Assembly (NCBI GenBank): GCA_017307865.1
Contig: JAFKGE010000017.1
Span: 1 to 64,000, forward strand
From: Burkholderiales bacterium
GTDB taxonomy: Bacteria; Pseudomonadota; Gammaproteobacteria; Burkholderiales; Burkholderiaceae_C
DNA length: 64,000 nucleotides
Direction of reading: 5' to 3'
Shown: positions 48,608 through 62,405 of the stretch, in pieces
Position numbering within the stretch: position 1 is the stretch's first letter
Layout: every line of letters begins with the position of its first letter
Made by a program: the position numbers and the translations under genes
The notes under the pieces: model-generated
The model's input: only the letters and a program-made list of their open reading frames with translations
Databases searched by the model: none
What the model was told of the DNA's origin: nothing

Positions 48608-49807
48608 TCACCCGATCGCCTCGGCCGGATCGACCTTCAGCGCCATGCGGATCGCCACCAGACTGGCCAGCACGCAGATCGCCATCAGGGCGAAGAAGCC
48701 GGCGATCGAGTCCTCGGGCACCAGCAGCACGTATTTGGGAAAGATGGGCGCCGCGAAGGTGGCGCTGATCTTGCCGACCACGAAGCCGATCAGCCCCAGC
48801 ACCAGCGCCTGCTGCAGGATCATGCCGGCGATGGTGCGGTTGCGCGTGCCGATCAGCTTGAGCACGGCGATCTCGCGGATCTTGTCCATCGTCAGCGTGT
48901 AGATGATGAAGGCGACGATGGCCGCGCTGACCAGCGCCAGAATCACCAGGAACATGCCGATCTGCTTGGCCGAGGTGGCGATCAGCTTGCCCAGCACGAT
49001 GCCTTCCATCTGCGCGCGGTCGTATACCGTCAGGCGCTTCCAGCGCCGGATCGGCTCGGCCACCTGCGCCGGCGCGAAGCCGGGCTGGGCGCGCACCAGC
49101 ACGGCGTTGACCGAGCTGTTGCTGGTCTGGGTGGCGATGACGGCATCGAGCAGGCCGGGCACGCCGGGACGGTTGAAGGCCGGGTTGGCCTCGGTGCGCC
49201 GCCGCTGCATCAGGATGGCGTCGTTGTCCTTGAGAAACTGCGCTTCCTGCGCGTCCTTGAGCGGGATGAACACCATCGGATCGCCGCCCGAGGACACCAT
49301 GCGGCGCGTGAGGCCGACCACGCGGTAGTGGTTGCGCCGGATCTTCAGCTCGTCGCCCAGCTGAAACCCCGAGGCCAGGTCGGCCACCGCCTCGTAGTGG
49401 CCGCGCGTGATCTGCCGGCCGGCCACCAGCTGCGGCGGCCAGCCCGGATCGCCCGGACCGCCGGCGGTGATGCCCACCACCATGGCGCGCACGTCGCGCT
49501 GGCCCTGGCCGACCTGCATCGTCAGGTAGGTCACGTTGACCGCCTGCGCCACGCCGGGCATGGCGCGAATGCCGCGCCACAGGTCGTCCGGCACGCTGGA
49601 CGACTCGGCATAGGGCCCCAGCGTGTCCTTCTGCACCACCCACAGATCGGCCCCGCTCGCGTCGAGCAACACTTTGCCGTCGTCGACCATGCCCCGGTAC
49701 ACGCCGGCCATGGTCAGCGTGACCCCGATCAACAAGCCCAGGCCGACCCCGGTGAAGATGAACTTGCCCCAGGCATGCAGGATGTCGCGCCCGGCCAGGC
49801 TGATCAT
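48608..49807 (-). CDS. FtsX-type ABC exporter permease (DevC-like)
   Basis: A 399-residue protein with one N-terminal membrane helix, a ~220-residue periplasmic domain, and three C-terminal helices with the FtsX signature 'IYTLTMDKIREIAVLKLIGTRNRTI'. This is the DevC topology. Its ATG overlaps the adaptor stop (ATGA). It acts with the adjacent ATPase, adaptor and outer-membrane factor. Confidence 0.92.
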   Translation of the reverse strand: MISLAGRDILHAWGKFIFTGVGLGLLIGVTLTMAGVYRGMVDDGKVLLDASGADLWVVQKDTLGPYAESSSVPDDLWRGIRAMPGVAQAVNVTYLTMQVGQGQRDVRAMVVGITAGGPGDPGWPPQLVAGRQITRGHYEAVADLASGFQLGDELKIRRNHYRVVGLTRRMVSSGGDPMVFIPLKDAQEAQFLKDNDAILMQRRRTEANPAFNRPGVPGLLDAVIATQTSNSSVNAVLVRAQPGFAPAQVAEPIRRWKRLTVYDRAQMEGIVLGKLIATSAKQIGMFLVILALVSAAIVAFIIYTLTMDKIREIAVLKLIGTRNRTIAGMILQQALVLGLIGFVVGKISATFAAPIFPKYVLLVPEDSIAGFFALMAICVLASLVAIRMALKVDPAEAIG

Positions 49808-50955
49808 GGCGACACCCCGGCAATGCGCTCGACCACCTGGATGCGGCTGCGCGCGCTCAGGGTCTTCTCGCTGTACACCACCACCTGCTCGCCCGCGGCC
49901 AGGCCCTGCGCCACCTGGACCCAGCCGTCCAGGTCGCCGCGGCCAGGTGTCACCGCCGCGAAGGCCAGCTTGCCGTCGGTCATTTTCCAGACGCCCCGCT
50001 GGCCGCCGACGGTGCGCAGCGCCGCGTTCGGAATGGCGGGCGCCGCGGCCAGCGCGGGCAATTGCACGGTCACCTCGGCCAGCTCGCCGACCGGCGGCAA
50101 GGAGGCCGGTGGCGCATCGAAGCTCAGCTTGGCCAGCGTTTCCTCGGTCACGGCGTCGGCGCGCGGCTCCACGCGCAGCACGCGGGCGTCCAGCGCCTGG
50201 CCGCGTCGCGACCGCAGCACCGCCTTGGCCGGCAAGCCGGCCGCCAGCCCCTCGGCCGCGATCTGGTCGAAGCGCGTGTCCACCCACAGGCTGGCCGGGT
50301 CGATGAGTTCGATCACCGCCTGCCCGGCCACCACCGTGGTGCCGGGATCGACGTCGCGCGCCACCACCAGTCCGGCCACCGGCGCCACCAGCACCAGGTT
50401 GCCGCGCTGCGCGCGCACCGCCTGCAACTCGGCACGCAGCCGGGCGCCGTCGGCGCGCGCCGCCACCAGCGCGGCATCGGCCAGCGCCAGCTCCTGGCGC
50501 TTGATGACGGCCTGCTCCTCGCTGGTGCCACGCGCCGCCAGCAGCTGCTCGTAGCGCGCCGCCTGCGTGCGGGCAAAGACCTGCCTGGCCTCGGCCTGGC
50601 GCAGGGCCGCGTCGGCGCTGACGATGGCGGCCTGCTGCGCGCGCAGGCGCTCGTCCAGATCGACCGGGTCCATCTCGCCCAGCACCTGGCCGGCGGCCAC
50701 GTGATCGCCCACCTGCACGTCGACGCGGCGCACGCGCCCGGCGCCGGTGGGGCCGATCTTGTAGGTGTAGCGCGCCTGCACCGTGCCGATGCCGGCCAGC
50801 GCCGGCGCGATGCTGCGCGATTCGACCTGCGTCACCGTCACGGCCACCGGCGCCAGCGGCCCCGAGCGCAGGGCGACGTAGGCGAACAGCACCGCCAGCG
50901 GCACGGTGACGGCCAGCAGCGTGAGCGTGCGGCGTTGCAGGCGTGGAAATTTCAT
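49804..50955 (-). CDS. Periplasmic adaptor (HlyD/membrane-fusion) protein
   Basis: A 383-residue adaptor with an N-terminal membrane anchor (LTLLAVTVPLAVLFAYVAL), split lipoyl halves ('GRVRRVDVQVGDHVAAGQVLGEMDP' and 'LVLVAPVAGLVVARDVDPGTTVVAGQAVIELID'), an alpha-helical hairpin ('RLRAQQAAIVSADAALRQAEARQVFARTQAARYEQLL') and beta-barrel/proximal domains. ATGA overlaps on both sides, with tetR and the permease. Confidence 0.92.
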   Translation of the reverse strand: MKFPRLQRRTLTLLAVTVPLAVLFAYVALRSGPLAPVAVTVTQVESRSIAPALAGIGTVQARYTYKIGPTGAGRVRRVDVQVGDHVAAGQVLGEMDPVDLDERLRAQQAAIVSADAALRQAEARQVFARTQAARYEQLLAARGTSEEQAVIKRQELALADAALVAARADGARLRAELQAVRAQRGNLVLVAPVAGLVVARDVDPGTTVVAGQAVIELIDPASLWVDTRFDQIAAEGLAAGLPAKAVLRSRRGQALDARVLRVEPRADAVTEETLAKLSFDAPPASLPPVGELAEVTVQLPALAAAPAIPNAALRTVGGQRGVWKMTDGKLAFAAVTPGRGDLDGWVQVAQGLAAGEQVVVYSEKTLSARSRIQVVERIAGVSP

Positions 50956-51560
50956 GGCGCACTCCCGATGCCGCGGCGGTAGATGGCGAACGCTCCCGGC
51001 GCCGCGTGGCGAATCTGGCCCACCTTGCCCGCCAGCAGCGACTGCATGACCAAACCCTGGATGGTGCCGATGAACAGCACCGCCGCCGCGTCCACGTCGA
51101 GCGCGCGGTCGAACTTGCCCTGCGCCTTGCCGGCGTCGAGCAGTCGGCGCAGGCGCACGCCGTACTGCTGCAGCAGCGTGCGCACCATCTGCTTGGGCAG
51201 GCTGTCGTCGGCGCGCTGCAGCTCGCCGAACAGCAGGCGCGGCACGCCCGGGTGCCGGGCGACGAAGTCGATGTGCGCCATGAACATGGCCTCCAGCGCG
51301 GCGGCCGGGCCAGCGGCCTGCGCGGCCGCCTGGTCGATGCGGGCCAACAGGCGCTCGCTGACCCAGGTCATGCAGGCCTGCACGATCGCGTCCCTGCTCG
51401 GGAAGTGCCGAAACAGCGCTCCCTGGGTCAGGCCCATGCGCTCGGCGATGGCGGCGGTGGTGATGTCGCTCGGGTTTTGCCGGGCGGCCAGGTCGATCAG
51501 GGCCGCCACGGTGGCTGCGCGCCGCTCGTCGGCCGGCAGGTGTCGTGCGCGTTCGGTCAT
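50952..51560 (-). CDS. TetR-family repressor of the exporter operon
   Basis: A 202-residue TetR protein: helix-turn-helix 'PSDITTAAIAERMGLTQGALFRHFPSRDAIVQAC' at residues ~30-65 and a ligand domain 'HPGVPRLLFGELQRADDSLPKQMV'. First gene of the five-gene operon tetR-adaptor-permease-ATPase-OMF. A palindrome 22 bases before its ATG is the likely operator. Confidence 0.9.
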   Translation of the reverse strand: MTERARHLPADERRAATVAALIDLAARQNPSDITTAAIAERMGLTQGALFRHFPSRDAIVQACMTWVSERLLARIDQAAAQAAGPAAALEAMFMAHIDFVARHPGVPRLLFGELQRADDSLPKQMVRTLLQQYGVRLRRLLDAGKAQGKFDRALDVDAAAVLFIGTIQGLVMQSLLAGKVGQIRHAAPGAFAIYRRGIGSAP

Positions 51561-51698: not shown

Positions 51699-53150
51699 TC
51701 AGCCGCCCGCGCCCGGCGCCGCCCCGTCGGCCGCCGGCAGGCACAGCCGCATGCGCAGGCCGCCCAGCGGCGAGGCCAGCGCCTGCACGCTGCCGCCGTA
51801 GGTCTCGGTCAGCGTGCGCACGATGTCCAGGCCCAGGCCCGAGCCGGGGCGCCGCTCGTCGCCCTGCACGCCGCGCTGGAACATGCGCTCGCGCTCGGCC
51901 TCGGCAATGCCGGGGCCGTCGTCGTCGACCGTGAAGCACAGCTCGCCGCCCGCCGGCTGCACGTCGAGCACCACGCGCGTGCGGGCCCACTTGCCGGCGT
52001 TGTCCAGCAGATTGCCCAGCAGCTCGTACAGGTCCTGCGCCTCGCCGCGAAAGGCCCCGTCACGCGCCTGCGGCGCCAGCTCGAAGACGACGCCGCGCTC
52101 CACGTGCAGGCGCGCCATGGTGCGCAGCAGCGAGCGCATGGGCCCCAGCACCGGGGTGCGCAGCCCGGTGGCGCGCACGGCGGCGGCGGCACGCGCGCGC
52201 GCCAGGTGCCAGTCGACCTGGCGCCGCGCCAGCTCGACCTGCTCGCGCACCTGCTGCGCCAGCGGACTGGCGTCCTGCTGCGCGGCGTTGGCCAGAATCG
52301 CCAGCGGCGTGTGCACCGCATGCGCCAGGTTGCCGGCCTGGGTGCGCGCGCGCTTCACCATGTCGGCGTTTTCGCGCAGCACGTGGTTGAACTCGCCCAC
52401 CAGCGGCTGCAGCTCCTGCGGGAAGTCGCCGCTCAACTGCGCCGCCTCGCCGCTGCGCACGGCGGCCAGACGCTGGCGCAGCAGCTTGAGCGGCTGCAGC
52501 GCGAAGTGCAATTGCAGGGCCACCGCCACCGCCAGGCCCAGCGCCAGCATGGCCAGCGCCGTCAGCAGCAGGCGCGTGAAGCGCTGCAGCGGCTCGGCCA
52601 GCAGCGCCTCGTCGCCGGCCACCACCAGGCGCAGCGGCGGCGCGGCGGGCTCGGGCAACTGCAGCGGCCGTGCCACGGCCAGCAGCGCGTGGCCCTGCGC
52701 ATCGTGCAGGTGCAGCACGCCATGGCCGGCGGCGGGGTACTGCGCGGGCGGCGGCGGCAGGGTCAGGGCCTGGTCCCACAGCGAGCGCGAGCGCGCGACG
52801 GCCGCGCGCGGCCGGGCGCCCCCTTCGTCCACCTGCCAGTACAGGCCCGACAGCGGCTGCTGCAGCCGCGCGTCGCCCGCCATCGGGGCCACGGTGACGC
52901 CCGTCCCCGGCGCCCAGTCGACCGCCGCGCTCAGCTGGTCGAGCTGCAGCAGCAGTTGCGCCTGCAGCTGCTGCGTGATGTGCTCCAGAAACAGCGCGCG
53001 CAGGCCCCAGCCGGCCACCGCCACCGCCAGCACGATCCAGGCCAGCGTGCCCGCCAGCAGCCGCAGGCGCAGCGATCCGCCGTTCATTGGACGAGCTGCG
53101 GCCTGGCGGCCTGCGGTGCGAGCACCTTGGGGCGGCCCGGCGGTGCTCAT
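51699..53150 (-). CDS. Sensor histidine kinase (PhoQ-like)
   Basis: A 483-residue two-TM sensor: helix 1 'LLAGTLAWIVLAVAVAGWGL', periplasmic sensor of ~140 residues, helix 2 'LLLTALAMLALGLAVAVAL', HAMP-like segment, dimerisation His in 'NLAHAVHTPLAILANAA', N box 'ELLGNLLDNAGKW', G1 'VDDDGPGIAE' and G2 'GSGLGLDIVRTL'. The H-x-x-x-TPLA form is PhoQ-like. ATG 53150 overlaps the regulator stop (ATGA); ATG 53087, 21 codons in, is an alternative. Confidence 0.9.
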   Translation of the reverse strand: MSTAGPPQGARTAGRQAAARPMNGGSLRLRLLAGTLAWIVLAVAVAGWGLRALFLEHITQQLQAQLLLQLDQLSAAVDWAPGTGVTVAPMAGDARLQQPLSGLYWQVDEGGARPRAAVARSRSLWDQALTLPPPPAQYPAAGHGVLHLHDAQGHALLAVARPLQLPEPAAPPLRLVVAGDEALLAEPLQRFTRLLLTALAMLALGLAVAVALQLHFALQPLKLLRQRLAAVRSGEAAQLSGDFPQELQPLVGEFNHVLRENADMVKRARTQAGNLAHAVHTPLAILANAAQQDASPLAQQVREQVELARRQVDWHLARARAAAAVRATGLRTPVLGPMRSLLRTMARLHVERGVVFELAPQARDGAFRGEAQDLYELLGNLLDNAGKWARTRVVLDVQPAGGELCFTVDDDGPGIAEAERERMFQRGVQGDERRPGSGLGLDIVRTLTETYGGSVQALASPLGGLRMRLCLPAADGAAPGAGG

Positions 53151-53818
53151 GCCGCCGCGCCGGTGTCCACCAGCCGGTAACCCAGGCCGCGCACGGTCTC
53201 GATGCTGCCCTCGGGCAGCTTCTTGCGCAGGCGCCCGACGAACACCTCGATGGTGTTGGAGTCGCGGTCGCTGTCTTGCGCGTAGATGTGCTCGGACAGC
53301 TCGGTGCGCGAGAGCACCTCGCCCTTGCGCTGCATCAAGAGCGACAGCAGCTTGAACTCGTGGCTGGTCAGCACCAGCGGCTGGCCGTCGACCAGCACGC
53401 GCGCCTGGCGCGTGTCCAGCCAGATCGGGCCGCAGCGCCACTCGGCACTGGCGTGCTCGCCGCCACGGCGCAGCAGCGCGCGCAGCCGCGCCAGCAGCTC
53501 CTCCATGTGAAAGGGCTTGGCCAGGTAGTCGTCGGCGCCGGCGTCCATGCCCTCGACCTTTTCCTGCCAGCTGCCGCGCGCGGTCAGGATCAGCACCGGC
53601 ATGTTGCGCCCGGCGGCGCGCCAGCGGCGCAGCACCGACAGGCCGTCCTGCACCGGCAGGCCCAGGTCCAGCACCACGGCGTCGAAGGCTTCCACCTCGC
53701 CCAGGTAATGCGCCTCGCGCCCGTCGGCGGCGCCCTCCACCGTGTGGCCGGCGGCGGCGATGGCCTGCATCAGCTGCTCGCGCAAGGTGGGTTCATCTTC
53801 CACCACGAGGATGCGCAT
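53147..53818 (-). CDS. OmpR-family response regulator (PhoP-like)
   Basis: A 223-residue regulator. Receiver: acidic pair 'VVEDEPTL', phospho-Asp in 'DAVVLDLGLPVQDG', Thr/Lys 'LILTARGSWQEKVEGMDAGADDYLAKPF'. C-terminal winged helix 'LTSHEFKLLSLLMQRKGEVLSRTELSEHIY' and 'SNTIEVFVGRLRKKL'. ATG 53818 with GAAGGGA upstream lies 26 bases inside the PepSY gene, so the three genes PepSY-regulator-kinase form one operon. Confidence 0.93.
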   Translation of the reverse strand: MRILVVEDEPTLREQLMQAIAAAGHTVEGAADGREAHYLGEVEAFDAVVLDLGLPVQDGLSVLRRWRAAGRNMPVLILTARGSWQEKVEGMDAGADDYLAKPFHMEELLARLRALLRRGGEHASAEWRCGPIWLDTRQARVLVDGQPLVLTSHEFKLLSLLMQRKGEVLSRTELSEHIYAQDSDRDSNTIEVFVGRLRKKLPEGSIETVRGLGYRLVDTGAAA

Positions 53819-54158
53819 CCGTGTCCCTTCCCGCTTCGCGGCGCTTGATCGACAGCACGCGGCCATCGACCGCATCGACCTTGAGTTTGGCCACGCGGCC
53901 GTCGTTTTGCAACAGGCGGATTTCGTAGATGAAGCGGCCGTCCTCGCGCTCGAACTCGACCTTCAGCACCTGCCCCGGCGCCTCGTGCGCCAGCTTGCCC
54001 AGCACGGTGGCCAGCGGCAGCACCTGGCCGCTTTCCAGCGCCTGGCGCGCCAGCTCGTGATCCTCGTGCGCCACCGCCGCGCCGCCGGCGCCCAGCGCGC
54101 ACAGCAGCAGCACGGCCGGCAGCAGCCGGTGCGGGCGATGGGTGAAGAACGGGCTCAT
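53793..54158 (-). CDS. PepSY-domain periplasmic protein
   Basis: A 121-residue secreted protein. Signal peptide MSPFFTHRPHRLLPAVLLLCALGAGGAAVA; PepSY core 'LPLATVLGKLAHEAPGQVLKVEFEREDGRFIYEIRLLQNDGRVAKLKVDAVDGRVL'. Such proteins often sit beside PhoPQ/QseBC-like systems and may tune the sensor in the periplasm. First gene of the PepSY-regulator-kinase operon and divergent from the cytochrome b gene. Confidence 0.9.
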   Translation of the reverse strand: MSPFFTHRPHRLLPAVLLLCALGAGGAAVAHEDHELARQALESGQVLPLATVLGKLAHEAPGQVLKVEFEREDGRFIYEIRLLQNDGRVAKLKVDAVDGRVLSIKRREAGRDTDAHPRGGR

Positions 54159-54182
54159 GAGGCCGATTTATACCGACGCGGC

Positions 54183-54199
54183 GATGAACCATCGATGAA
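54183..54199. promoter_or_regulatory. 11-bp-period direct repeat, candidate response-regulator box
   Basis: GATGAA at 54183-54188 and 54194-54199, spaced exactly 11 bases start to start, the geometry of OmpR-family sites. It lies in the 130-base spacer between the divergent PepSY and cytochrome b genes. Confidence 0.4.
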
Positions 54200-54288
54200 T
54201 GGCGTCTTCAGCAAGCGTTCACCCGGCGTGCCGAGAATGCATGGCAGGCCCGGCATGGCGCCGGACCGCAAGGACCGCTGGAGCCAAC

Positions 54289-54876
54289 ATGAAAACCCAA
54301 GGCAAGCATTACCACCCCCTGCAGATCGGTGTGCACTGGCTGACGCTGCTGCTGCTGATCGCCGTCTACGCGCTGATCGAGCTGCGCGACATCTACCCCA
54401 AGGGCAGCGCCGGGCACGAGCTGATGAAGACCTGGCACTTCATGCTGGGCATGGCCGTGCTGGCCGTGGTGCTGGTGCGCCTGCCGCTGCGGCTGGCGCT
54501 GCAGGCGCCCCCCATCACGCCGCCGCCGCCGGCCTGGCAGGAGCAGCTGGCGCACGCCATGCACTGGGCGCTCTACGGCTTTCTGATCGTGATGCCCCTG
54601 CTGGGCTGGCTGACGCTGAGCGCCAAGGGGCAGCCGATCCCCTTCTTCGGGCTGGAGTTGCCGGCCCTGATGGGGCCCGACCGCGCCACGGCCAGGAACC
54701 TGGAGGGCATCCACGAGCTGATCGGCAACCTGGGCTTCTTCCTGATCGGCCTGCACGCCGCCGCCGCGCTGTGGCACCACTACTTCATGCGCGACGACAC
54801 GCTGGAGCGCATGTTGCCGCTGGCGACCCGGCAGCCCGAACGGGGCGCGCAGGCCCGCCTGCATCGGCCGAGCTGA
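54289..54876 (+). CDS. Cytochrome b561-type membrane protein
   Basis: A 195-residue four-helix di-heme cytochrome b. Heme histidines can be placed at 'LQIGVHWLTLLLL', 'KTWHFMLGMAVL', 'ALYGFLIVMPLLG' neighbourhood 'LAHAMHWALYG' and 'FLIGLHAAAALWHHYF'. Transfers electrons within the inner membrane. ATG 54289 with GGAGCC upstream. Heads the rightward run cytochrome b-PepSY-DUF2271-PepSY/flavoreductase-ApbE. Confidence 0.9.
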   Translation: MKTQGKHYHPLQIGVHWLTLLLLIAVYALIELRDIYPKGSAGHELMKTWHFMLGMAVLAVVLVRLPLRLALQAPPITPPPPAWQEQLAHAMHWALYGFLIVMPLLGWLTLSAKGQPIPFFGLELPALMGPDRATARNLEGIHELIGNLGFFLIGLHAAAALWHHYFMRDDTLERMLPLATRQPERGAQARLHRPS

Positions 54877-54891
54877 CAAGGAGCACACACC

Positions 54892-55311
54892 ATGAAAACC
54901 CGCCAGACCATCGCCCCGGGCCTGCTGGCCCTCACCCTGGGCGCCGCGGCGCTGCCGGCCTGGGCCGGTGACGACTGCGACGTGCCGATCCAGCGCTGGC
55001 AGTCGCGCGAAGCGGTGCGCCAGATGGCCGCCGACAAGGGCTGGGAGCTGCAGCGCCTGAAGATCGACGACGGCTGCTACGAGGTGCGCGGCCGCGACGC
55101 CGAGGGGCGCCGCTTCAAGGCCAAGCTGGACCCCGAGACGCTGGAGCCCGTCAGCCTGAAGCGGCGCGAACGCGACGACGACAACCGGCGTGACCGGCAG
55201 CGCGAGCGCCGTCGCGCACACGCGCCCAGCGAGCCGGCCGCATCGCCGGGCGCCGGCCCCGCCTCACCGCTCTTCACGCCCGGCAGCAAGCCGCGTGCAC
55301 AGGTCGAGTGA
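54892..55311 (+). CDS. PepSY-domain periplasmic protein, second
   Basis: A 139-residue protein with signal peptide MKTRQTIAPGLLALTLGAAA (cleaved near LPAWA) and a PepSY-like core 'VPIQRWQSREAVRQMAADKGWELQRLKIDDGCYEVRGRDAEGRRFKAKLDPETLEPV'. Two Cys (in DDCDV and DDGCYEV) may form a disulphide. The C-terminal tail is highly charged and then Pro/Ala-rich. It starts 15 bases after the cytochrome b gene. Confidence 0.88.
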   Translation: MKTRQTIAPGLLALTLGAAALPAWAGDDCDVPIQRWQSREAVRQMAADKGWELQRLKIDDGCYEVRGRDAEGRRFKAKLDPETLEPVSLKRRERDDDNRRDRQRERRRAHAPSEPAASPGAGPASPLFTPGSKPRAQVE

Positions 55312-55317
55312 GGGTGG

Positions 55318-55378
55318 AAATTTTAAGTCAAATGTGCTTGCAGCGCTTGATGGACAAGCGCGAGCAGCTATCGAATTG
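55318..55378 (-). repeat. GATAGCT-family dispersed repeat, copy 9
   Basis: Minus-strand reading: CAATTCGATAGCTGCTCGCG, CTTGTCCATCAAGCGCTGC, then ACATTTGACTTAAAA. It fills the gap between the PepSY and DUF2271 genes, antisense to both, and its head touches the DUF2271 ribosome-binding site. Confidence 0.85.
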
Positions 55379-55390
55379 AGAGGAATGATC

Positions 55391-55867
55391 ATGAAAAAAC
55401 CCGTTCACACCGCCCTCGCCGCCGCCGCTGTGCTGGCCCTGCCCGTGCTGGCCCAAAGCCGCGAGCTCACGCTGAGCACGCAGCTGAAGAACTACGGCGG
55501 CGACGGCGCCTACCTGGCCGTGTACCTGACCGACGCCAAGGGCGCCTACGCCGGCACGCTGTGGGTGGCCGGCGGCAAGGCCAAGTACTACAAGCACCTG
55601 GCGGACTGGAACCGCCTGTCCGCCGGCGACGCCAAGCGCCTGCAGGGCGTGACCGGCGCCAGCGTGGGCGCCGGCCGCACGCTCAAGGTGACGGCCGACT
55701 TGGCGGACGCGCTGATCGACGCCGGCTATGAAATCCACGTCGACGCCGCGGTCGAGGACATGCGCGACAGCCCGTCCGAAATCCGCGTGCCGCTGACCGC
55801 CGCCGGCGCCGGCAAGGCGCAGGCCGGCAAGGCCTACGTCCAGTCCTTCAGCTATCAACTCAAGTAA
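55391..55867 (+). CDS. Exported DUF2271 protein, candidate covalently flavinylated redox protein
   Basis: A 158-residue protein with signal peptide MKKPVHTALAAAAVLALPVL then mature 'QSRELTLSTQL'. The DUF2271 core includes 'APYLAVYLTDAKG'-type region 'YLAVYLTDAKGAYAGTLWVAGGKAKYYKHLADW'. At residues 86-91 it has G-V-T-G-A-S, resembling the ApbE recognition signature D-x-x-S/T-G-A-S/T; Thr88 would carry FMN. The usual Asp three residues before is Gln here. ATG 55391 has GAGAGGA six bases upstream. Sits between cytochrome b/PepSY genes and the reductase and ApbE genes. Confidence 0.85.
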   Translation: MKKPVHTALAAAAVLALPVLAQSRELTLSTQLKNYGGDGAYLAVYLTDAKGAYAGTLWVAGGKAKYYKHLADWNRLSAGDAKRLQGVTGASVGAGRTLKVTADLADALIDAGYEIHVDAAVEDMRDSPSEIRVPLTAAGAGKAQAGKAYVQSFSYQLK

Positions 55868-55876
55868 GCAAGCCCC

Positions 55877-58084
55877 ATGTTCTGGCGCAAGATTCATCGC
55901 TGGTTGGGCCTGGTGGCCGGCACCGTCGCGCTGGTGCTGGGCCTGACGGGCGCCGTGCTCTCGCTGGACCCGGTGCTCTCGCGCTGGCAAGCCGCGCCGA
56001 CGCCCCCTGGCCTCAGCGTGGCGCAACTGGCCGAGCGCGTCGCGGCCAGCACCCCCGGCGCGGAGGAAATCCGCCGCCTGCCCTCGGGCGAGGTGGTGGT
56101 CTACGCCTTCGACAACGGCCAGGCGCGCGCCAACCGGGTCGATCCGGCCAGCGGCCAGCTGCTGGGCGCCTACCAGCCCTCGGCCACCATGCGCTGGTTC
56201 AAGAACCTGCACCGCAGCTTTCTGCTGGGCGATGCCGGGCGGCTGGCGGCGGCGGGCATCGCGCTGGCGATGGGCTTGATCTCGATCAGCGGCCTGGTGC
56301 TGCTGGCGCGGCGCCTGGGCGGCTGGCGGCAGCTGGCGGCGCGCGTGCGCAGCACGGGGGTGCAGCGCCTGCATGCGGTCACCGGCCGCGTGGTGCTGGC
56401 GGTGCTGCTGCTGACCTCGGTCACGGCGCTCACCCTGAGCGCGGCCACCTTCGGCCTGGTCACGCTGGACGCGGCGCAAGAGCCCGAGCTCGCGTCCAAC
56501 GTTGCCACCCAGGGGGAACTTCCCGTTGCTCAATTGCCCTTGCTGCGGGAGCTGCCGCTGCGCGATTTGCGCAAACTGAACTTCCCCTCCGCCGACGACC
56601 CGGCCGACACCTGGCAGGTGACGACGGCGCAAGGCCAGGGCTGGATCGACCGCCACAGCGGCCAGACCCTGGCCTGGCAGCCGGCCAGCACGGCGCAGCG
56701 CATCAACGACTGGGCCCAGCTGCTGCACACCGGCGAAGGCGCCTGGGCCTGGGCGCCGGTGCTGGGGCTGGCGGGCCTGAGCATCCCGCTGTTCTGGGTC
56801 ACGGGCGTCATGCTGTGGTGGCAGGCGCGCCGCCAGCGGCCGCGCCTGGCCGACAACAGCGCGGCCGCGCAGGCCGACACGCTGATCTTCGTGGCCAGCG
56901 AAAACGGCTCCACCTGGGGCTTCGCGCAGGCGCTGCACGCCGCCCTGGTGCAGGGGGGGCACCGGGTGCACAGCGCGGGCCTGGAAAGCTTTGCTGTGCC
57001 GGCCGGTGCCAGCCAAGTCTTCGTGCTGGCCGCCACCTATGGCGACGGCCAGGCGCCGGCGCATGCGGCGCACGCGCTGGAGCGCATCGCGCGCACGCCG
57101 CTCACTTCGGCCCGCGTCACGGTGCTGGGCTTTGGCGACCGCCAGTTCGACGCCTTCTGCGCCTATGCCGACGCGCTGGACGGGGCACTGCGCGAACGCG
57201 GCTGGGCCAGCCTGTTGCCGCTGGCCCGCATCCACCAGCAATCCGCGCAAGAGTTTGCCCGCTGGGGCGAACAGCTGGGCGAGGCGCTGGGCGAACCGCT
57301 GGCGCTGCGCTACCGCCCGCGCATTCCGCGCACCACCGAGCTGGAGCTGGTGTCGCGCCAGGATTACCCGGGCGGCGCGGGCGAGCCGGCGGCGATCCTG
57401 CGCTTCCAGTGGCCGCGGGCGGGTTGGCTCGATCGCATCACGGGTCGCGCCTTGGCGCGCTTTTCTGCCGGCGACCTGCTGGGCGTGCTGCCACCCGATG
57501 GCGCCGTGCCGCGCCTGTATTCGCTGGCCAGCAGCTGGCGCGACGGCTTTGTCGAAATCTGCGTGCGCCGCCGCGCCGGCGGCGTGTGCTCGGGCTATCT
57601 GCACGGCCTGCAGCCGGGCGCGCGCATCCAGGCCTTCATCCGGCCCAACCCCGCCTTCACGCTGCAGGCCACGCGCCACCCGGTGATGCTGATCGGCGCC
57701 GGCACGGGCGTGGCGCCGCTGGCCGGCTTCATTCGCGGCAACACCGGACGCGCGCCCATGCACCTGTACTACGGCGTGCGCGACCCGGCGCTGGACTTTT
57801 ATTTCGAGGCCGACCTGCAGCGCTGGCTGGACGAGCAGCGCCTGGCCAGCCTGCACACCAGCTTCTCGCGCACGCCCCAGGGCGGCGGCTACGTGCAGGA
57901 CGCGCTCCAGCGCGACGCGGCGCGGCTGCGCAAGCTCATCGCCAAGGGCGCCATCGTGCGCGTGTGCGGCAGCCAGGCCATGGCGCGCGGCGTGGCGCAA
58001 GCGCTGGACGCCATCCTGGGCACGGTGGGCCTGAGCGTGCAGCAACTGAAGGCCCATGGACGCTATGCCGAAGACACCTTCTGA
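55877..58084 (+). CDS. PepSY-TM / flavodoxin / NADPH-flavoreductase fusion
   Basis: A 735-residue membrane flavoenzyme. Residues 1-320: PepSY-associated TM helices ('WLGLVAGTVALVLGLTGAVLSLDP', 'KNLHRSFLLGDAGRLAAAGIALAMGLISISGLVLLARR', 'IPLFWVTGVMLWW') with PepSY repeats between. Residues ~335-470: flavodoxin domain ('LIFVASENGSTWGFAQAL', 'LAATYGDGQAPAHA', 'GFGDRQFDAFCAYA'). Residues ~480-735: sulfite-reductase/CPR-type FAD-NADPH module ('RLYSLASS', 'GVCSGYL', 'VMLIGAGTGVAPLAGFI', 'VCGSQAMARGV'). It should pass NADPH electrons through the membrane. Its last 29 bases overlap apbE. Confidence 0.92.
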   Translation: MFWRKIHRWLGLVAGTVALVLGLTGAVLSLDPVLSRWQAAPTPPGLSVAQLAERVAASTPGAEEIRRLPSGEVVVYAFDNGQARANRVDPASGQLLGAYQPSATMRWFKNLHRSFLLGDAGRLAAAGIALAMGLISISGLVLLARRLGGWRQLAARVRSTGVQRLHAVTGRVVLAVLLLTSVTALTLSAATFGLVTLDAAQEPELASNVATQGELPVAQLPLLRELPLRDLRKLNFPSADDPADTWQVTTAQGQGWIDRHSGQTLAWQPASTAQRINDWAQLLHTGEGAWAWAPVLGLAGLSIPLFWVTGVMLWWQARRQRPRLADNSAAAQADTLIFVASENGSTWGFAQALHAALVQGGHRVHSAGLESFAVPAGASQVFVLAATYGDGQAPAHAAHALERIARTPLTSARVTVLGFGDRQFDAFCAYADALDGALRERGWASLLPLARIHQQSAQEFARWGEQLGEALGEPLALRYRPRIPRTTELELVSRQDYPGGAGEPAAILRFQWPRAGWLDRITGRALARFSAGDLLGVLPPDGAVPRLYSLASSWRDGFVEICVRRRAGGVCSGYLHGLQPGARIQAFIRPNPAFTLQATRHPVMLIGAGTGVAPLAGFIRGNTGRAPMHLYYGVRDPALDFYFEADLQRWLDEQRLASLHTSFSRTPQGGGYVQDALQRDAARLRKLIAKGAIVRVCGSQAMARGVAQALDAILGTVGLSVQQLKAHGRYAEDTF

Positions 58085-59042
58085 ACCCCTCGTGCGCGCA
58101 CGCCTGCACGGCCCGACCATGGGCACGCGCTGGTCGGTGCTGTGCGATCTCGAACCCACGGTGGATCAGCCAGCCCTGCGGCTTGCGCTGGCGGCAGCCG
58201 TGCAGCAGGTCGACCAGCAGATGTCGCCCTGGAAGCCCGACAGCGAGCTGATGCGCCTGAACCGCGCCGCGCCCGAGGAATGGGTGGCGCTGCCGCCCGA
58301 GATCATGACGGTGCTGACGCGCGCCGTCGAGGTCGGGCGCCAAAGCGGCGGCGCGTTCGACCCCACGGTGGGCGCGCTGGTCGATGCCTGGGGCTTCGGC
58401 GCCGCGCGCGACACTCCCGACGCCGCCGCCATTCGCGCCGCCACGCAGGCCACGCACGGGCCGGCGCATCAGAGCCTGGAGCTGGACCCCGCCAAGGGTC
58501 GCGCCCGCAAGCACGCGCCACTGCAGGTCGACCTGTGCGGCATCGCCAAGGGCTACGCGGTCGACCGCATGACCGCCGTGCTGCAGCGGCACGGCGTGGC
58601 GCACGCGCTGGCCGCGCTGGACGGCGAGCTGCGCGCCCTGGGCGGCCAGGCCGATGGCCAGCCCTGGGCGGTGGCGCTGGAAAGCCCCATGCCCGGCCGA
58701 CGCAGCGCCCACGGCGTGCTCGAGCTGCACGACCTGGCCGTCGCCACCTCGGGCGACTACCGCCGCTTCGTGCAGGTGGGCGCCGATCGCCTGGCCCACA
58801 CCATGGACCCGCGCCGCGCCGCCCCGGTGCGCAACGACGTCGCCTCCGTCACCGTGCTGGCGCCGGACTGCATGAGCGCCGACGCCTGGGCCACAGCGCT
58901 GCTGGTGGCCGGCGGCGACCACGGCCTGGCCCTGGCGCAACGCCTGGGCCTGGAGGCGCTGTTCCTGCTGCGGCGCGGCGCGGGCCTGGTCGAGCTGGGC
59001 CTGGGCCGCTTCGATGCCCGCGCGGTCGGCGCCAACGGGTGA
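58056..59042 (+). CDS. apbE: FAD:protein FMN transferase (ApbE family)
   Basis: A 328-residue flavin transferase that attaches FMN to Thr/Ser of target proteins. Family motifs: 'GPTMGTRWSV', 'SELMRLNR', 'GAFDPTVGALVDAWGFG', 'VDLCGIAKGYAVDRM', 'DLAVATSGDYRRF', 'LAHTMDPRRAAPV' and the C-terminal 'MSADAWATALLVAG'. No signal peptide or lipobox is visible, so unlike many ApbE proteins it appears cytoplasmic. It overlaps the reductase gene by 29 bases; ATG 58065 is an alternative start. Confidence 0.92.
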   Translation: MDAMPKTPSEPLVRARLHGPTMGTRWSVLCDLEPTVDQPALRLALAAAVQQVDQQMSPWKPDSELMRLNRAAPEEWVALPPEIMTVLTRAVEVGRQSGGAFDPTVGALVDAWGFGAARDTPDAAAIRAATQATHGPAHQSLELDPAKGRARKHAPLQVDLCGIAKGYAVDRMTAVLQRHGVAHALAALDGELRALGGQADGQPWAVALESPMPGRRSAHGVLELHDLAVATSGDYRRFVQVGADRLAHTMDPRRAAPVRNDVASVTVLAPDCMSADAWATALLVAGGDHGLALAQRLGLEALFLLRRGAGLVELGLGRFDARAVGANG

Positions 59043-59123
59043 ACGCCCGATGAATCGGGCATTCAGCATCGATTCACCGTCCGGCGCGCAAACTTCAGGC
59101 ACAGTCAGCTTCGACTGCAACCC

Positions 59124-59390
59124 AGTCCAGTGAAACGGAGAAATCGGCGGTGCGTGAATGCCAGGCAGAGCCGCAATCGAGGCGTCGGGCGCAGCCGGGT
59201 TGGACACCCGGCGAGCACGGCAACGAAGAGTGCGGCCCTGCCAGGCGTTCACCCGAAGGGCGGGTGCCGCAACAGGCGCATACCGGCGTTGCGCACCTTG
59301 CCAAGGCCACCAGCCTTGGCTGCGGCACGCGCCTTGGCCTGCACCCGTTGCGACACCCGCGCACCGCCGATTTCTCCGTTTCACTGGACT
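59124..59390. mobile_element. MITE-like element with 31-bp perfect terminal inverted repeats
   Basis: Left end AGTCCAGTGAAACGGAGAAA... (59124-59154) is repeated perfectly in inverse orientation at 59360-59390. AACCC occurs just outside both ends (59119-59123 and 59392-59396), possibly a target duplication. The 267-base interior has no transposase; it contains a hairpin GCCAAGGC/GCCTTGGC (59300-59320). Short frames beginning MKRRNRRC on both strands come from the inverted repeats and are not genes. It separates apbE from the next gene and ends just before that gene's ribosome-binding site. Confidence 0.75.
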
Positions 59391-59407
59391 AAACCCAGGA
59401 GACCATC

Positions 59408-59713
59408 ATGCGCACCACCGCCCTTCTCGCCACGATCGCCGTGCTGGGCACGGCCCTCAGCGCCCCCGTGCTGGCCGGCGACCACCACAAACGTGAGCGT
59501 CGGCAGCACATCAGCGCGCCGGCCCAAACCGGCTACGACCACGGCATGCAGGTCGTGGCCAACGACGCCGGCCCCGGCCAACCCGGCCACGGCTGGCAGT
59601 ATTTTTCCGACGCCAACGCGCAGCGCGCCGTGGTCATCAGCCCCCAGGGCGACTACTACCTCAGCCAGGGCCGCGGCCTGCACTGGGTGGCTGCCGCGCA
59701 GGGGCAGGCCTGA
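59408..59713 (+). CDS. Small secreted protein, unrecognised
   Basis: A 101-residue protein with a clear signal peptide (MRTTALLATIAVLGTALSAP, cleavage near VLAG) and a His-rich mature start 'GDHHKRERRQHISAP'. The body 'GWQYFSDANAQRAVVISPQGDYYLSQGRGLHWVA' looks like one small beta-rich domain. No family recognised. The ribosome-binding site AGGAG directly follows the MITE-like element, so the gene's promoter must lie in or be replaced by that element. Confidence 0.72.
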   Translation: MRTTALLATIAVLGTALSAPVLAGDHHKRERRQHISAPAQTGYDHGMQVVANDAGPGQPGHGWQYFSDANAQRAVVISPQGDYYLSQGRGLHWVAAAQGQA

Positions 59714-59834: not shown

Positions 59835-62405
59835 ATGCCCATCCGCGACCCCGCCCCAGCCACCGAGCCCCAGGGCCTGAGCAGCCAGCAGGCGGCCGAG
59901 CTTCTCGCGCGTGACGGCCCGAACCAGCTGCCCGGCAGCGCGCCCAAGTCCACCCTGGCCATCGTGCGCGAGGTGCTGACCGAGCCCATGTTCCTGATGC
60001 TGCTGGCCGCCGGCGGCATCTACCTGGCGCTGGGCGACAAGGGCGAGGCGCTGTTCCTGCTCGGCTTCGTCTTCGTGGTCATCGGCATCACGCTGGTGCA
60101 GGAGCGGCGCACGCAGCGCGCGCTGGAGTCGCTGCGCGCGCTGTCCGCCCCGCGCGCGCTGGTGCTGCGCGACGGCCAGGAGCGGCGCATCGCCGGCACC
60201 GAGGTGGTCTGCGGCGACCTGCTGGTGCTGCACGAGGGCGACCGCATCGCCGCCGACGCGCGGCTGCTGCAGGGCGAACTGGAGGTGGATGAATCGCTGC
60301 TCACGGGCGAATCCGTGCCCGTGGCCAAGCTGGCGGGCGACGCGGCCAAACCCGATGCAGGAGCCGACCTGTTCGCCAGCACCGTGATCACGCGCGGCCG
60401 GGGCCTGGCCCGCGTGCTGGCCACGGCCGGGCGCACGGCCGTGGGCCGCATAGGCGCCGACCTGGCCAGGGCCGAGGCGCCGCCTTCGCCGCTGCAGCAG
60501 CGCTCACGCCGGCTGGTGCGCGGCCTGGGGGCGCTGGCGCTCGCGCTGGCGCTGGCGCAGGTGCTGCTGGGCTGGTGGTGGAACGGCCGGCCGCTGCTCG
60601 ACAGCCTGCTGGCCGGCATCGCCCTGGCCATGGCGCTGCTGCCCGAGGAGATTCCCGTCATCCTCACCGTGTTCCTGGCGCTTGGCGCCTGGCGATTGAC
60701 GCGGCTGCAGGTGCTGACGCGGTGCGTCACCGCCGTGGAGACCCTGGGCGCCATCACCGTGCTGGCGGTGGACAAGACCGGCACGCTGACCATGAACCGC
60801 ATGGCCGTGGCCGAGCTGGCCACTCCCACCGGCCATTGGAGCGCACAGGACGCACAGGAGCTGCCCGAGGACTTTCACCGGCTGGTGGAATTCGGCATGC
60901 TGGCCACGCCGGGCGACCCGTTCGACCCCATGGAGCAGGCCATACAGCGCTTCGGCCACGACTGGCTGCGCGGCACCGAGCATGTGCACGACGGGCGCGA
61001 GCCGGTGTTCGAGTACGCGCTGTCGGGCGAGATCCTGGCCATGACGCGCGTGTACGCCAGCGGTGCCCCCGACCTGCACTTGCTGGCCACCAAGGGCGCG
61101 CCCGAGGCCGTGGCCGACCTGTGCCACCTGGACGCGCCACGCCTGGCCGCCGTGCGCGCCCAGGTAGACGCCCTGGCCGAGCGCGGCCTGCGCGTGCTGG
61201 GCGTGGCCTGCGGGCGCTGGACCGGCCAGCCCGCCCAAGCGTGGCCGCCCAGCCAGCACGACTTCGACTTCGAGTTCCTGGGCCTGCTGGCGCTGGCCGA
61301 CCCGCCGCGCCCCGAGGTGCCGGGCGCCATTGCCGAATGCCGCGCCGCCGGCGTGCGCGTGGTGATGATGACCGGCGACCACCCGGCGACGGCGCGCGCC
61401 ATCGCGCGCCAGGTGGGCCTGTCCGAGCGGCCAGAGGTCATCACCGGCGACGAGATCGGGCAGCTGGACGACGCCACGCTGCGCGAGCGCCTGCGCCATG
61501 TGGACCTGTGCGCGCGCCTGAAGCCCGAGCACAAGCTGCGCCTGGTGCAGCTGCTGCACGCGGGCGGCGAGGTAGTGGCCATGACCGGCGACGGCGTGAA
61601 CGACGCCCCCGCGCTCAAGGCCGCGCATGTGGGCATCGCCATGGGCGAACGCGGCACCGACGTGGCGCGCGAGGCAGCGGCCCTGGTGCTGCTCCAGGAC
61701 AGCTTCGCCCACATCGTCGCCGCCGTCGCGCAAGGCCGGCGCATCGACGACAACCTGCGCAAGGCCACGCGCTTCGTGTTTGCCGTGCACCTGCCCATCG
61801 TGGCGCTGGCCCTCGCCCCCACGCTGCTGCACTGGCCGGCGCTGCTGCTGCCGGTGCACATCGTGCTGATGGAGCTGCTCATCGACCCGGCCTGCTCCAT
61901 CGTCTTCGAGGCCGAGCCCGCGGCGGACGACCTCATGCAACGCCCGCCGCGGCCGGTGGATGACTCGCCGTTCGCGCTGCGCGCCCTGCTGCCGCCGCTG
62001 CTGCAGGGCGCCGGCATCGCCGCCCTGCTGCTGGCCGCGCAGGCCTGGCTGCAAGCCCAAGGCTGGAGCCAGGCCCAGGGCCGCACGGTGGTCTTCGGCG
62101 CGCTGCTGATCTGCGTGCCGCTGCTGATCCTGGCGCAGCGCAACCCGGCGCGCGCCGTGCTGCACCGCGGCGCGGCGCCCAATCCCTGGCTGCGGCCCAT
62201 GGTGGCCGCCGTGGGCCTGCTGCTGCTGGCCGTGCTGGCCATCCCGGGTCTGCGCCAGCTGATGGGGCTGGCCGAGGTCGGCTGGGCGGGTCTCGCGGCC
62301 GGCGCCGCCGTGCTGGCGCTGTGCCTGCTCTGGCTGGAGCTGCTGCGCCTGGCCTTCAGATCGAGCGCATCAGCCCGCCGTCGACCCGGATATTCTGCCC
62401 CGTGA
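59835..62405 (+). CDS. Cation-translocating P-type ATPase
   Basis: An 856-residue P-type ATPase. N-terminal cation-ATPase domain 'GLSSQQAAELLARDGPNQLP'; actuator 'DESLLTGESVPV'; M4 ion motif 'ALLPEEIPVILTVFLALGAWRL'; phosphorylation 'LAVDKTGTLTMNRM'; nucleotide domain 'LATKGAPEAV'; hinge 'VAMTGDGVNDAPALKAAHVGIAMG'; then C-terminal helices. P-E-E-I-P in M4 resembles P2-like bacterial ATPases annotated as Ca or unspecified cation pumps; ion unknown. Its last 50 bases overlap the convergent SDR gene. Confidence 0.92.
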   Translation: MPIRDPAPATEPQGLSSQQAAELLARDGPNQLPGSAPKSTLAIVREVLTEPMFLMLLAAGGIYLALGDKGEALFLLGFVFVVIGITLVQERRTQRALESLRALSAPRALVLRDGQERRIAGTEVVCGDLLVLHEGDRIAADARLLQGELEVDESLLTGESVPVAKLAGDAAKPDAGADLFASTVITRGRGLARVLATAGRTAVGRIGADLARAEAPPSPLQQRSRRLVRGLGALALALALAQVLLGWWWNGRPLLDSLLAGIALAMALLPEEIPVILTVFLALGAWRLTRLQVLTRCVTAVETLGAITVLAVDKTGTLTMNRMAVAELATPTGHWSAQDAQELPEDFHRLVEFGMLATPGDPFDPMEQAIQRFGHDWLRGTEHVHDGREPVFEYALSGEILAMTRVYASGAPDLHLLATKGAPEAVADLCHLDAPRLAAVRAQVDALAERGLRVLGVACGRWTGQPAQAWPPSQHDFDFEFLGLLALADPPRPEVPGAIAECRAAGVRVVMMTGDHPATARAIARQVGLSERPEVITGDEIGQLDDATLRERLRHVDLCARLKPEHKLRLVQLLHAGGEVVAMTGDGVNDAPALKAAHVGIAMGERGTDVAREAAALVLLQDSFAHIVAAVAQGRRIDDNLRKATRFVFAVHLPIVALALAPTLLHWPALLLPVHIVLMELLIDPACSIVFEAEPAADDLMQRPPRPVDDSPFALRALLPPLLQGAGIAALLLAAQAWLQAQGWSQAQGRTVVFGALLICVPLLILAQRNPARAVLHRGAAPNPWLRPMVAAVGLLLLAVLAIPGLRQLMGLAEVGWAGLAAGAAVLALCLLWLELLRLAFRSSASARRRPGYSAP

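Follow-up and report, generated by a model that had tools for sequence, protein, structure and literature searches.

Which way do electrons flow through a bacterial gene set that joins PepSY proteins to a DUF2271 protein and ApbE, the transferase of flavin mononucleotide (FMN)? On which side of the membrane is the flavin attached, and what controls the genes? These questions are raised by a cluster on contig JAFKGE010000017.1 of a Burkholderiales bacterium (assembly GCA_017307865.1), of which positions 1 to 64,000 (64,000 nucleotides, hereafter the window) were analyzed. The cluster consists of two divergent operons (Table 1). The leftward operon carries pepA, a response regulator gene and a histidine kinase gene, which ends at 51699. 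The rightward operon carries the genes for a cytochrome b561, PepB, the DUF2271 protein, a 735-amino-acid PepSY_TM-flavodoxin-FNR protein and ApbE. The genes named in the original prediction, which was made from the DNA sequence, were all found at or beside the places it gave them, as judged by open reading frame (ORF) coordinates and Pfam. Its gene set stands, whereas its span, 53147..59042, leaves the histidine kinase gene (51699-53150) almost wholly outside.

We read the cluster, with a probability of about two in three, as a class II PepSY-like flavinylation operon (class II is defined below) with an electron route across the membrane, a cytosolic ApbE, and control by an SK1-type sensor and a 37-bp box. 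The gene set probably moves electrons from the cell interior onto a protein with covalent flavin. This type of system is known; the side of the membrane on which its ApbE seems to work is unexpected. Papers are cited here for the portions of their texts that were covered.

The DUF2271 protein and the electron route

The near relatives of the window DUF2271 protein were the best 80 of 215 DUF2271 relatives from a search of genome contigs (the near loci, mostly in Burkholderiales-type bacteria or proteobacterial metagenome-assembled genomes, MAGs). When the window protein was aligned with these 80, its V-T-G-A-S motif had T in 80 of the 81 sequences and G, A and S in all 81. Judged by this alignment, the motif is no chance match. 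The protein had been predicted to come close to the ApbE target signature, and the [S/T]GA[S/T] site is indeed there, as TGAS, with the last Ser in every sequence. The predicted FMN-bearing residue has to be moved. With the Met at 55391 as residue 1, Thr88 opens the TGAS motif, whereas ApbE adds FMN to the final residue of D-x-x-[S/T]-G-A-[S/T] (PMC12052999); Thr88 was rejected under this rule, and the predicted site is therefore Ser91. The residue at the motif opening, usually Asp, is Gln in the window; among the 81 there were 27 Asp, 23 Asn, 15 Gln and 11 Ala. Loss of the motif Asp had only a minor effect (PMC12052999).

In the 3.9-Mb genome of the window, one DUF2271 protein, one ApbE and no FMN_bind protein were found at the search threshold, so that the DUF2271 protein is the only evident substrate. 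A hydrophobic leader, as in signal-peptide-bearing targets of ApbE, was found in the window protein by hydrophobicity rather than by SignalP, and in 79 of the 81 aligned proteins; where the other two (L030 and L032) begin is unclear. A twin-arginine pair (RR) was absent from the first 20 residues of all 81. No solved relative was found (best E 0.33), and no phage family matched. Flavinylation of a DUF2271 protein with ApbE was shown for A. ursilacus, where it was abolished when the site threonine was changed (PMC8238504).

A wider set was drawn from a phylum sample of 398 genomes, 65 of which gave DUF2271 matches at E <= 1e-10, 68 matches in all. We used 64 of these, leaving out the window itself and the matches of three genomes (G292, G470 and G608); 20 of the 64 loci had no ApbE match in the fetched slice. 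In a midpoint-rooted FastTree tree of 75 sequences, the window protein, ten near relatives and 13 TGAS proteins of other families formed a 24-tip clade with support 1.0. DUF4198 was found in 49 of the 64 wider loci (tblastn; queries confirmed as PF10670). It was found by tblastn in none of the 13 TGAS loci elsewhere and none of the 80 near loci, and by Pfam in none of the window proteins scanned. PepB was found in 80 of 80 near loci and in 10 of the 13 TGAS loci elsewhere; of these 13, 11 also matched the regulator and 5 the ferric-reductase-like protein. By tree and gene neighbors, the window DUF2271 protein is in a separate clade, class II, with a PepSY_2 partner and without DUF4198. PepB is the constant partner in the near loci of this class, with two conserved cysteines, Cys29 (72 of 74) and Cys62 (74 of 74).

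The expectation that apbE-linked orthologs keep the flavin motif held among the near relatives (76 of 80 loci with an ApbE, last Ser in all) but does not extend to every apbE-linked DUF2271 protein. Many members of the other class (L099-L102, L129-L148 and L162-L188) carry GPT or SAT, not GAT, at the flavin site and so depart from [S/T]GA[S/T].

The gene of the 735-amino-acid protein adjoins the DUF2271 and ApbE genes, and its product matches PF03929; PepSY-like systems are recognized by a PF03929 or PF16357 protein in a flavinylation-associated cluster that reaches five genes to each side (PMC8238504). Its C-terminal half resembles CysJ and P450 reductases, and its membrane histidines 7, 112, 166 and 284 were invariant in 75 of 75 aligned sequences. 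From the analogy with PepSY-type proteins (PMC11334425), we infer that these four histidines would hold two bis-His haems. NADPH would reduce the cytosolic FAD/FMN domains of this protein (FAD, flavin adenine dinucleotide), and electrons would cross the membrane via the two haems of the PepSY_TM part. The FMN on Ser91 of the periplasmic DUF2271 protein would then be reduced and would pass the electrons to a periplasmic oxidant. This route from NADPH to the periplasmic FMN, as originally predicted, is the best reading of the gene set: it fits the class of PMC8238504, and the invariant histidines support the haem step. For the acceptor, ferric chelates are the best single guess, at somewhat less than an even chance.

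Electrons might also run inward, the DUF2271 protein or the b561 gathering them in the periplasm and feeding quinone. E. coli b561 is a superoxide:quinone oxidoreductase, which counts for this direction, as does the best NCBIfam match of the window b561, PRK11513 cytochrome b561 (144 bits, cut-off 170). The main membrane protein, however, has an NAD(P)H reductase at its C-terminal end, so outward flow is favored and inward flow is improbable.

PepA and the regulator co-occur in 29 of the 80 near loci (the regulator-linked loci). Fifteen of these had a Ferric_reduct + FAD_binding_8 protein, seven a b561, seven neither and none both; three of the ferric-reductase-like proteins were identified with Pfam and the rest by tblastn. 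In the 51 near loci without the regulator, the ferric-reductase-like protein was found in none and b561 in four, three of them near copies. The b561 reads as a stand-in, a second haem-carrying electron entry in the slot of the relatives' ferric-reductase-like protein, and would probably take electrons from quinol. This evidence weighs less because the loci are related.

The sensor, the regulator and the 37-bp box

The two-component system had been called PhoPQ-like. In NCBIfam, the kinase scored 136 of the 497 bits for PhoQ and the regulator 207 of the 336 bits for PhoP; both equivalog cut-offs were missed, and the assignment was rejected for this reason. The regulator also matched PmrA, with 216 bits, under the cut-off. 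The kinase instead bears SGLYWQ and RSRSLWD, the SK1 signature. Of the 27 near loci that matched the kinase, 26 had this signature too. The SK1 sensor and its accessory protein Orf1 go with the operon of the sphaeroides haem protein (SHP) and also occur in other contexts (PMC2909971). PepA occupies the position of Orf1 and of DbfQ, a likeness by gene position. DbfQ, a PepSY protein of Vibrio cholerae, binds its sensor and favors phosphatase activity (PMC12714742).

Side-by-side alignment of the promoters revealed a 37-bp box, TGAA-N7-TGAA-N7-TTCA-N7-TTCA, with four half-sites at 11-bp spacing, two per strand. The 3.9-Mb genome has two exact boxes, both at the cluster, none with one or two mismatches, and three places with three. 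The near loci had 49 exact boxes in 1.19 Mb, and in 1 Mb of first-order random sequence no site reached 13 of the 16 core bases. A box matching 14 or more of the 16 core bases lay upstream of the operon in 27 of the 29 regulator-linked near loci. A box just after apbE was found in 14 of these 29 and in 3 of the 51 others, and boxes lay elsewhere in 4 loci. The exact box was present in 69 of 299 family genomes, and the reversed-pattern control gave 0 among the rows listed; three other genomes of the genus of the window had no exact box. Taken together with the sensor type, these sites suggest that the SK1-type sensor and its regulator probably control the gene set via this candidate operator. 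The kinase and PepA would govern both operons through the two direct-repeat pairs of the box, and probably orf101 as well. The box and the sensor assignment make control of the operon directly testable.

To see what the box faces in relatives, we used 72 fetched stretches around box sites of the family as the sample. They held 74 exact sites, one of them counted twice (L270 and L271 overlap). On one side, 48 sites had the regulator, kinase or PepA, 8 had orf101, 5 the DUF2271 operon, 1 a b561 or ferric-reductase-like gene, 1 an ATPase gene and 11 none of these. Among the latter 11, one (L280) had a diheme cytochrome c, judged by eye, and four (L230, L283, L285 and L288) an EptA-type gene. The SK1 signature could be seen in 38 of the 72 stretches; the slice often did not reach the kinase. 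Regulator linkage at the 48 sites was judged by sequence similarity (the regulator of L257 is a weak match only), and the facing families were named by Pfam on one member each. By clustering, the side opposite the regulator had DUF1924 and a diheme cytochrome c at 16 of the 48 sites, a small PepSY_2 protein at 22, DUF2271 at 5 and a ferric-reductase-like protein at 12. Direct matches added a thirteenth ferric-reductase-like protein (L227) and gave b561 at 5 (L237, L250, L254, L271 and L273). The DUF1924 set shared no locus with the ferric-reductase, b561 and PepSY_2 sets compared. Through the box and the sensor, electron delivery to the periplasm by flavin and by haem is connected with a single type of regulator.

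In four relatives (L230, L283, L285 and L288), an exact box lies 15-25 bp before a gene for an EptA-type phosphoethanolamine transferase (one Pfam-scanned), which hints at a link with envelope stress. In another (L281:2476), it lies between hemerythrin-like and ferritin-like genes, named by eye.

Under envelope stress, the electrons might serve a periplasmic defense that deals with oxidants (O2, NO, superoxide or damaged proteins), in place of the SHP module with its haem. In support of this explanation, a similar regulator and an identical box precede DUF1924 (SHP) and the diheme cytochrome c at the 16 sites above, SHP binds O2 and has a reported NO dioxygenase activity (PMC2909971), and DbfQRS responds to envelope stress (PMC12714742). 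Common regulation is, however, no proof of common purpose, and the window proteins scanned included no SHP, peroxidase or other oxidant-handling enzyme. We consider this purpose unlikely, if not markedly so.

Alternatively, the cluster might be a ferric reductase for iron acquisition, resembling clusters under Fur control in Shewanella and Caulobacter. A link with iron exists for PepSY-like clusters (PMC8238504; PMC11870441), and the slot protein of the relatives is ferric-reductase-like. DbfS is a related sensor, and its ortholog in Pseudomonas aeruginosa, BqsS, uses ExxE to sense Fe(II) (PMC12666569; PMC12714742). Class II, however, lacks DUF4198 in all near loci and in all 13 loci elsewhere. 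No Fur consensus site was found in the window with up to 3 mismatches, and Fur control was dropped for this reason. Neither E..E nor E...E occurs in residues 56-195 of the window sensor, the stretch taken as periplasmic, and iron sensing via ExxE was dropped as well. DbfQRS of V. cholerae did not respond to iron (PMC12714742). Iron acquisition is a possible purpose, though less likely than not.

ApbE without an export signal

Most ApbE proteins are secreted and typically membrane-anchored (PMC12052999). The window ApbE keeps His248, Asp276 and Thr280, which were present in 76 of 76 aligned sequences, and aligns with solved ApbE structures such as 6nxi. Neither a signal peptide nor a lipobox, the marks of a secreted ApbE, was found in it, and its frame is open only two codons upstream of the first ATG. 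For the comparison with other copies, every ATG, GTG or TTG start within the 70 residues that precede the conserved ApbE core was scored for hydrophobicity. No leader was possible in 77 copies from 76 of the 80 near loci, nor in the 11 class II copies that came from 13 loci of other families, two of these loci having no ApbE match. Among the other unfused ApbE proteins of the wider sample, 3 of 29 had a possible leader; L141 has a clear lipobox, whereas L130 and L168 are doubtful cases. For the control, 28 of the ApbE loci with the best scores were taken from a class sample, in genomes with no DUF2271 over the cut-off, the DUF2271-linked ApbE of G012 being excluded; 27 of the 28 were positive for a leader.

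Because ApbE is leaderless and the DUF2271 protein has a leader, we infer that the cytosol is the probable place of FMN attachment, the simplest reading, and that the chain would then leave by Sec. Since a seven-residue tag suffices as an ApbE substrate (PMC12052999), the unfolded DUF2271 precursor is a plausible one. The cytosolic ApbE would thus load FMN on the precursor before its export. A literature search of limited extent, which included the covered portions of PMC8238504, PMC12052999 and PMC11334425, found no discussion of cytosolic loading of DUF2271 proteins.

ApbE might still be periplasmic, reaching its place by a non-classical route or together with its substrate and flavinylating the DUF2271 protein there. 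The secretion of most ApbE proteins speaks for such a location, as do the lipobox of one DUF2271-linked copy (L141) and the leader found, by the same hydrophobicity test, in 3 of 4 ApbE-DUF2271 fusions (L164-L167, about 500 amino acids). Against it stand the short upstream frame of the window gene, the 77 near copies in which no start yields a leader, and the lack of a twin-arginine pair in DUF2271. A periplasmic ApbE is unlikely on these grounds.

Several points weigh against the class II operon with its cytosolic ApbE and box control. The lipobox and the fusion leaders just described are among them, as is the missing Fur site. The apbE of A. ursilacus was termed 'signal peptide-truncated' (PMC8238504), so some ApbE partners of DUF2271 proteins may be exported. 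ApbE is reported to prefer Thr over Ser (PMC12052999), and the window protein has Ser at this site. Leaders were judged by a hydrophobicity score rather than by SignalP. The box lay upstream in only 17 of the 51 near loci without the regulator, and in other families none of the 13 class II loci had an exact box. Finally, the counts in the near set are not independent because many of the loci are kin; for example, L045 and L047 come from one MAG, and L077, L079 and L081 differ little from one another.

In the usual picture, exported proteins are flavinylated in the periplasm, and exported FAD is needed for this. Cytosolic FMN loading, if true, would relocate this modification in a common bacterial system, and a covalently flavinylated chain would thread the translocon, Sec then carrying a covalent cofactor as cargo. 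A broader generalization can be offered only tentatively. It holds that the DUF2271-linked ApbE proteins form a cytosolic class that needs no periplasmic FAD, and that one SK1-type sensor and its 37-bp operator serve, by lineage, either the DUF2271 flavin module or the SHP/diheme haem module for the same task of periplasmic electron delivery.

Table 1. Features of the cluster and its right flank, in window coordinates
Feature	Coordinates	Strand	Basis and remarks
Sensor histidine kinase	51699..53150	-	Pfam HATPase_c; SK1 signature; its ATG overlaps the regulator TGA
OmpR/PhoB-family response regulator	53147..53818	-	Pfam Response_reg + Trans_reg_C
PepA, small exported PepSY protein	53793..54158	-	Pfam PepSY 2.2e-9; hydrophobic leader
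Box 1	54185..54221		Divergent promoter between pepA and b561
Cytochrome b561	54289..54876	+	Pfam
PepB, exported PepSY_2 protein	54892..55311	+	Pfam PepSY_2 1.5e-24
DUF2271 protein, 158 amino acids	55391..55867	+	Pfam DUF2271 2.9e-35; Sec-type leader, score 2.47; predicted ApbE substrate
T-G-A-S motif	55652..55663	+	Predicted FMN residue Ser91, codon 55661-55663
PepSY_TM + flavodoxin + FAD/NAD(P)H reductase, 735 amino acids	55877..58084	+	PF03929 1.2e-40
ApbE FMN transferase without signal peptide	58056..59042	+	Pfam ApbE 4.2e-83
Box 2, second exact copy	59040..59076		Overlaps the apbE stop; upstream of orf101
orf101, small exported protein	59408..59713	+	Probable second target; present in 21 of 80 near loci
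P-type cation ATPase	59835..62405	+	Possible further regulon member; Pfam; 6 of 80 near loci at the score used

No Pfam, NCBIfam or PHROGs match was found for orf101 at the thresholds used. An element resembling a miniature inverted-repeat transposable element (MITE) lies between box 2 and orf101, at 59122-59392, with perfect 31-bp terminal inverted repeats (59124-59154 and 59360-59390). A second copy, 96% identical, lies at G000:C84:122858-123124. The gap between apbE and orf101 was 103-229 bp in 15 of the 16 near loci with that order, 288 bp in the other (L044) and 366 bp in the window; the MITE-like element cannot fit into the 15 shorter gaps. Beside the kinase gene, at 48608-51560 on the reverse strand, are a TetR regulator gene, an HlyD-like gene and, named by eye, an FtsX-like gene (48608-49807). 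In one near locus (L004), genes that look similar by eye adjoin the cluster.

Comparison with known systems

The original prediction took ApbE-linked PepSY systems to be known in outline, and the class was indeed described in 2021 by Meheust et al. (PMC8238504), with 3220 PepSY-like clusters, 2833 of them with DUF2271, as well as 1077 PepSY-like genes that include an NAD-binding domain. The operon core is a member of this described kind, as that paper describes such clusters of DUF2271 and ApbE. Both have a PepSY_TM protein (some there with an NAD-binding domain), a DUF2271 protein with [S/T]GA[S/T], and ApbE. The clusters of PMC8238504 differ in that they often have DUF4198, absent from the window, and some have iron genes. 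The word b561 is absent from the main text of PMC8238504, and the portion of that paper covered mentions neither control by SK1 nor the box nor an ApbE without a leader. As far as the literature search goes, three things appear to be new: a leaderless ApbE with an exported substrate, this sensor type with a candidate operator, and the exchange of modules behind that operator.

The control region is most like the SK1/Orf1 system of the SHP operon described by Meyer et al. in 2010 (PMC2909971), with which it has in common the sensor signature and the divergent layout; a small PepSY protein stands where that system has its accessory protein Orf1. That paper defines SK1 by variants of SGVYWQ and RSRSLWD, and the SGLYWQ and RSRSLWD of the window kinase correspond to them. 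There, SK1/Orf1 faces SHP, a diheme cytochrome c and a cytochrome b, whereas the window system stands opposite b561 and the flavinylation operon; neither DUF1924 nor a diheme cytochrome c was found among the window proteins scanned. DbfQRS of V. cholerae and BqsRS/CarRS of P. aeruginosa are also alike in having a small PepSY protein by a kinase and a regulator (PMC12714742, PMC4682146, PMC12666569). They differ from the window system in their targets and by the ExxE that was not found in the window sensor. The BqsR operator is TTAAG-N6-TTAAG (PMC4682146). When read as TTCAN-N6-TTCAN, the window box has the same pentamer-N6-pentamer geometry but different letters, TTCA instead of TTAAG.

The membrane protein is comparable to FoxB of P. 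aeruginosa (PMC11334425), with which it would share a haem-binding PepSY membrane core, as judged from its PepSY_TM match and its four invariant histidines. Unlike FoxB, the window protein is fused to a flavodoxin and an NAD(P)H reductase, and no FoxB chain was among the 60 of 97 PDB sequence matches listed for it. ApbE is similar to the cytosolic ApbE of Klebsiella (PMC12052999) in having no signal peptide. The Klebsiella enzyme serves a soluble fumarate reductase, whereas the substrate in the window carries an export signal.

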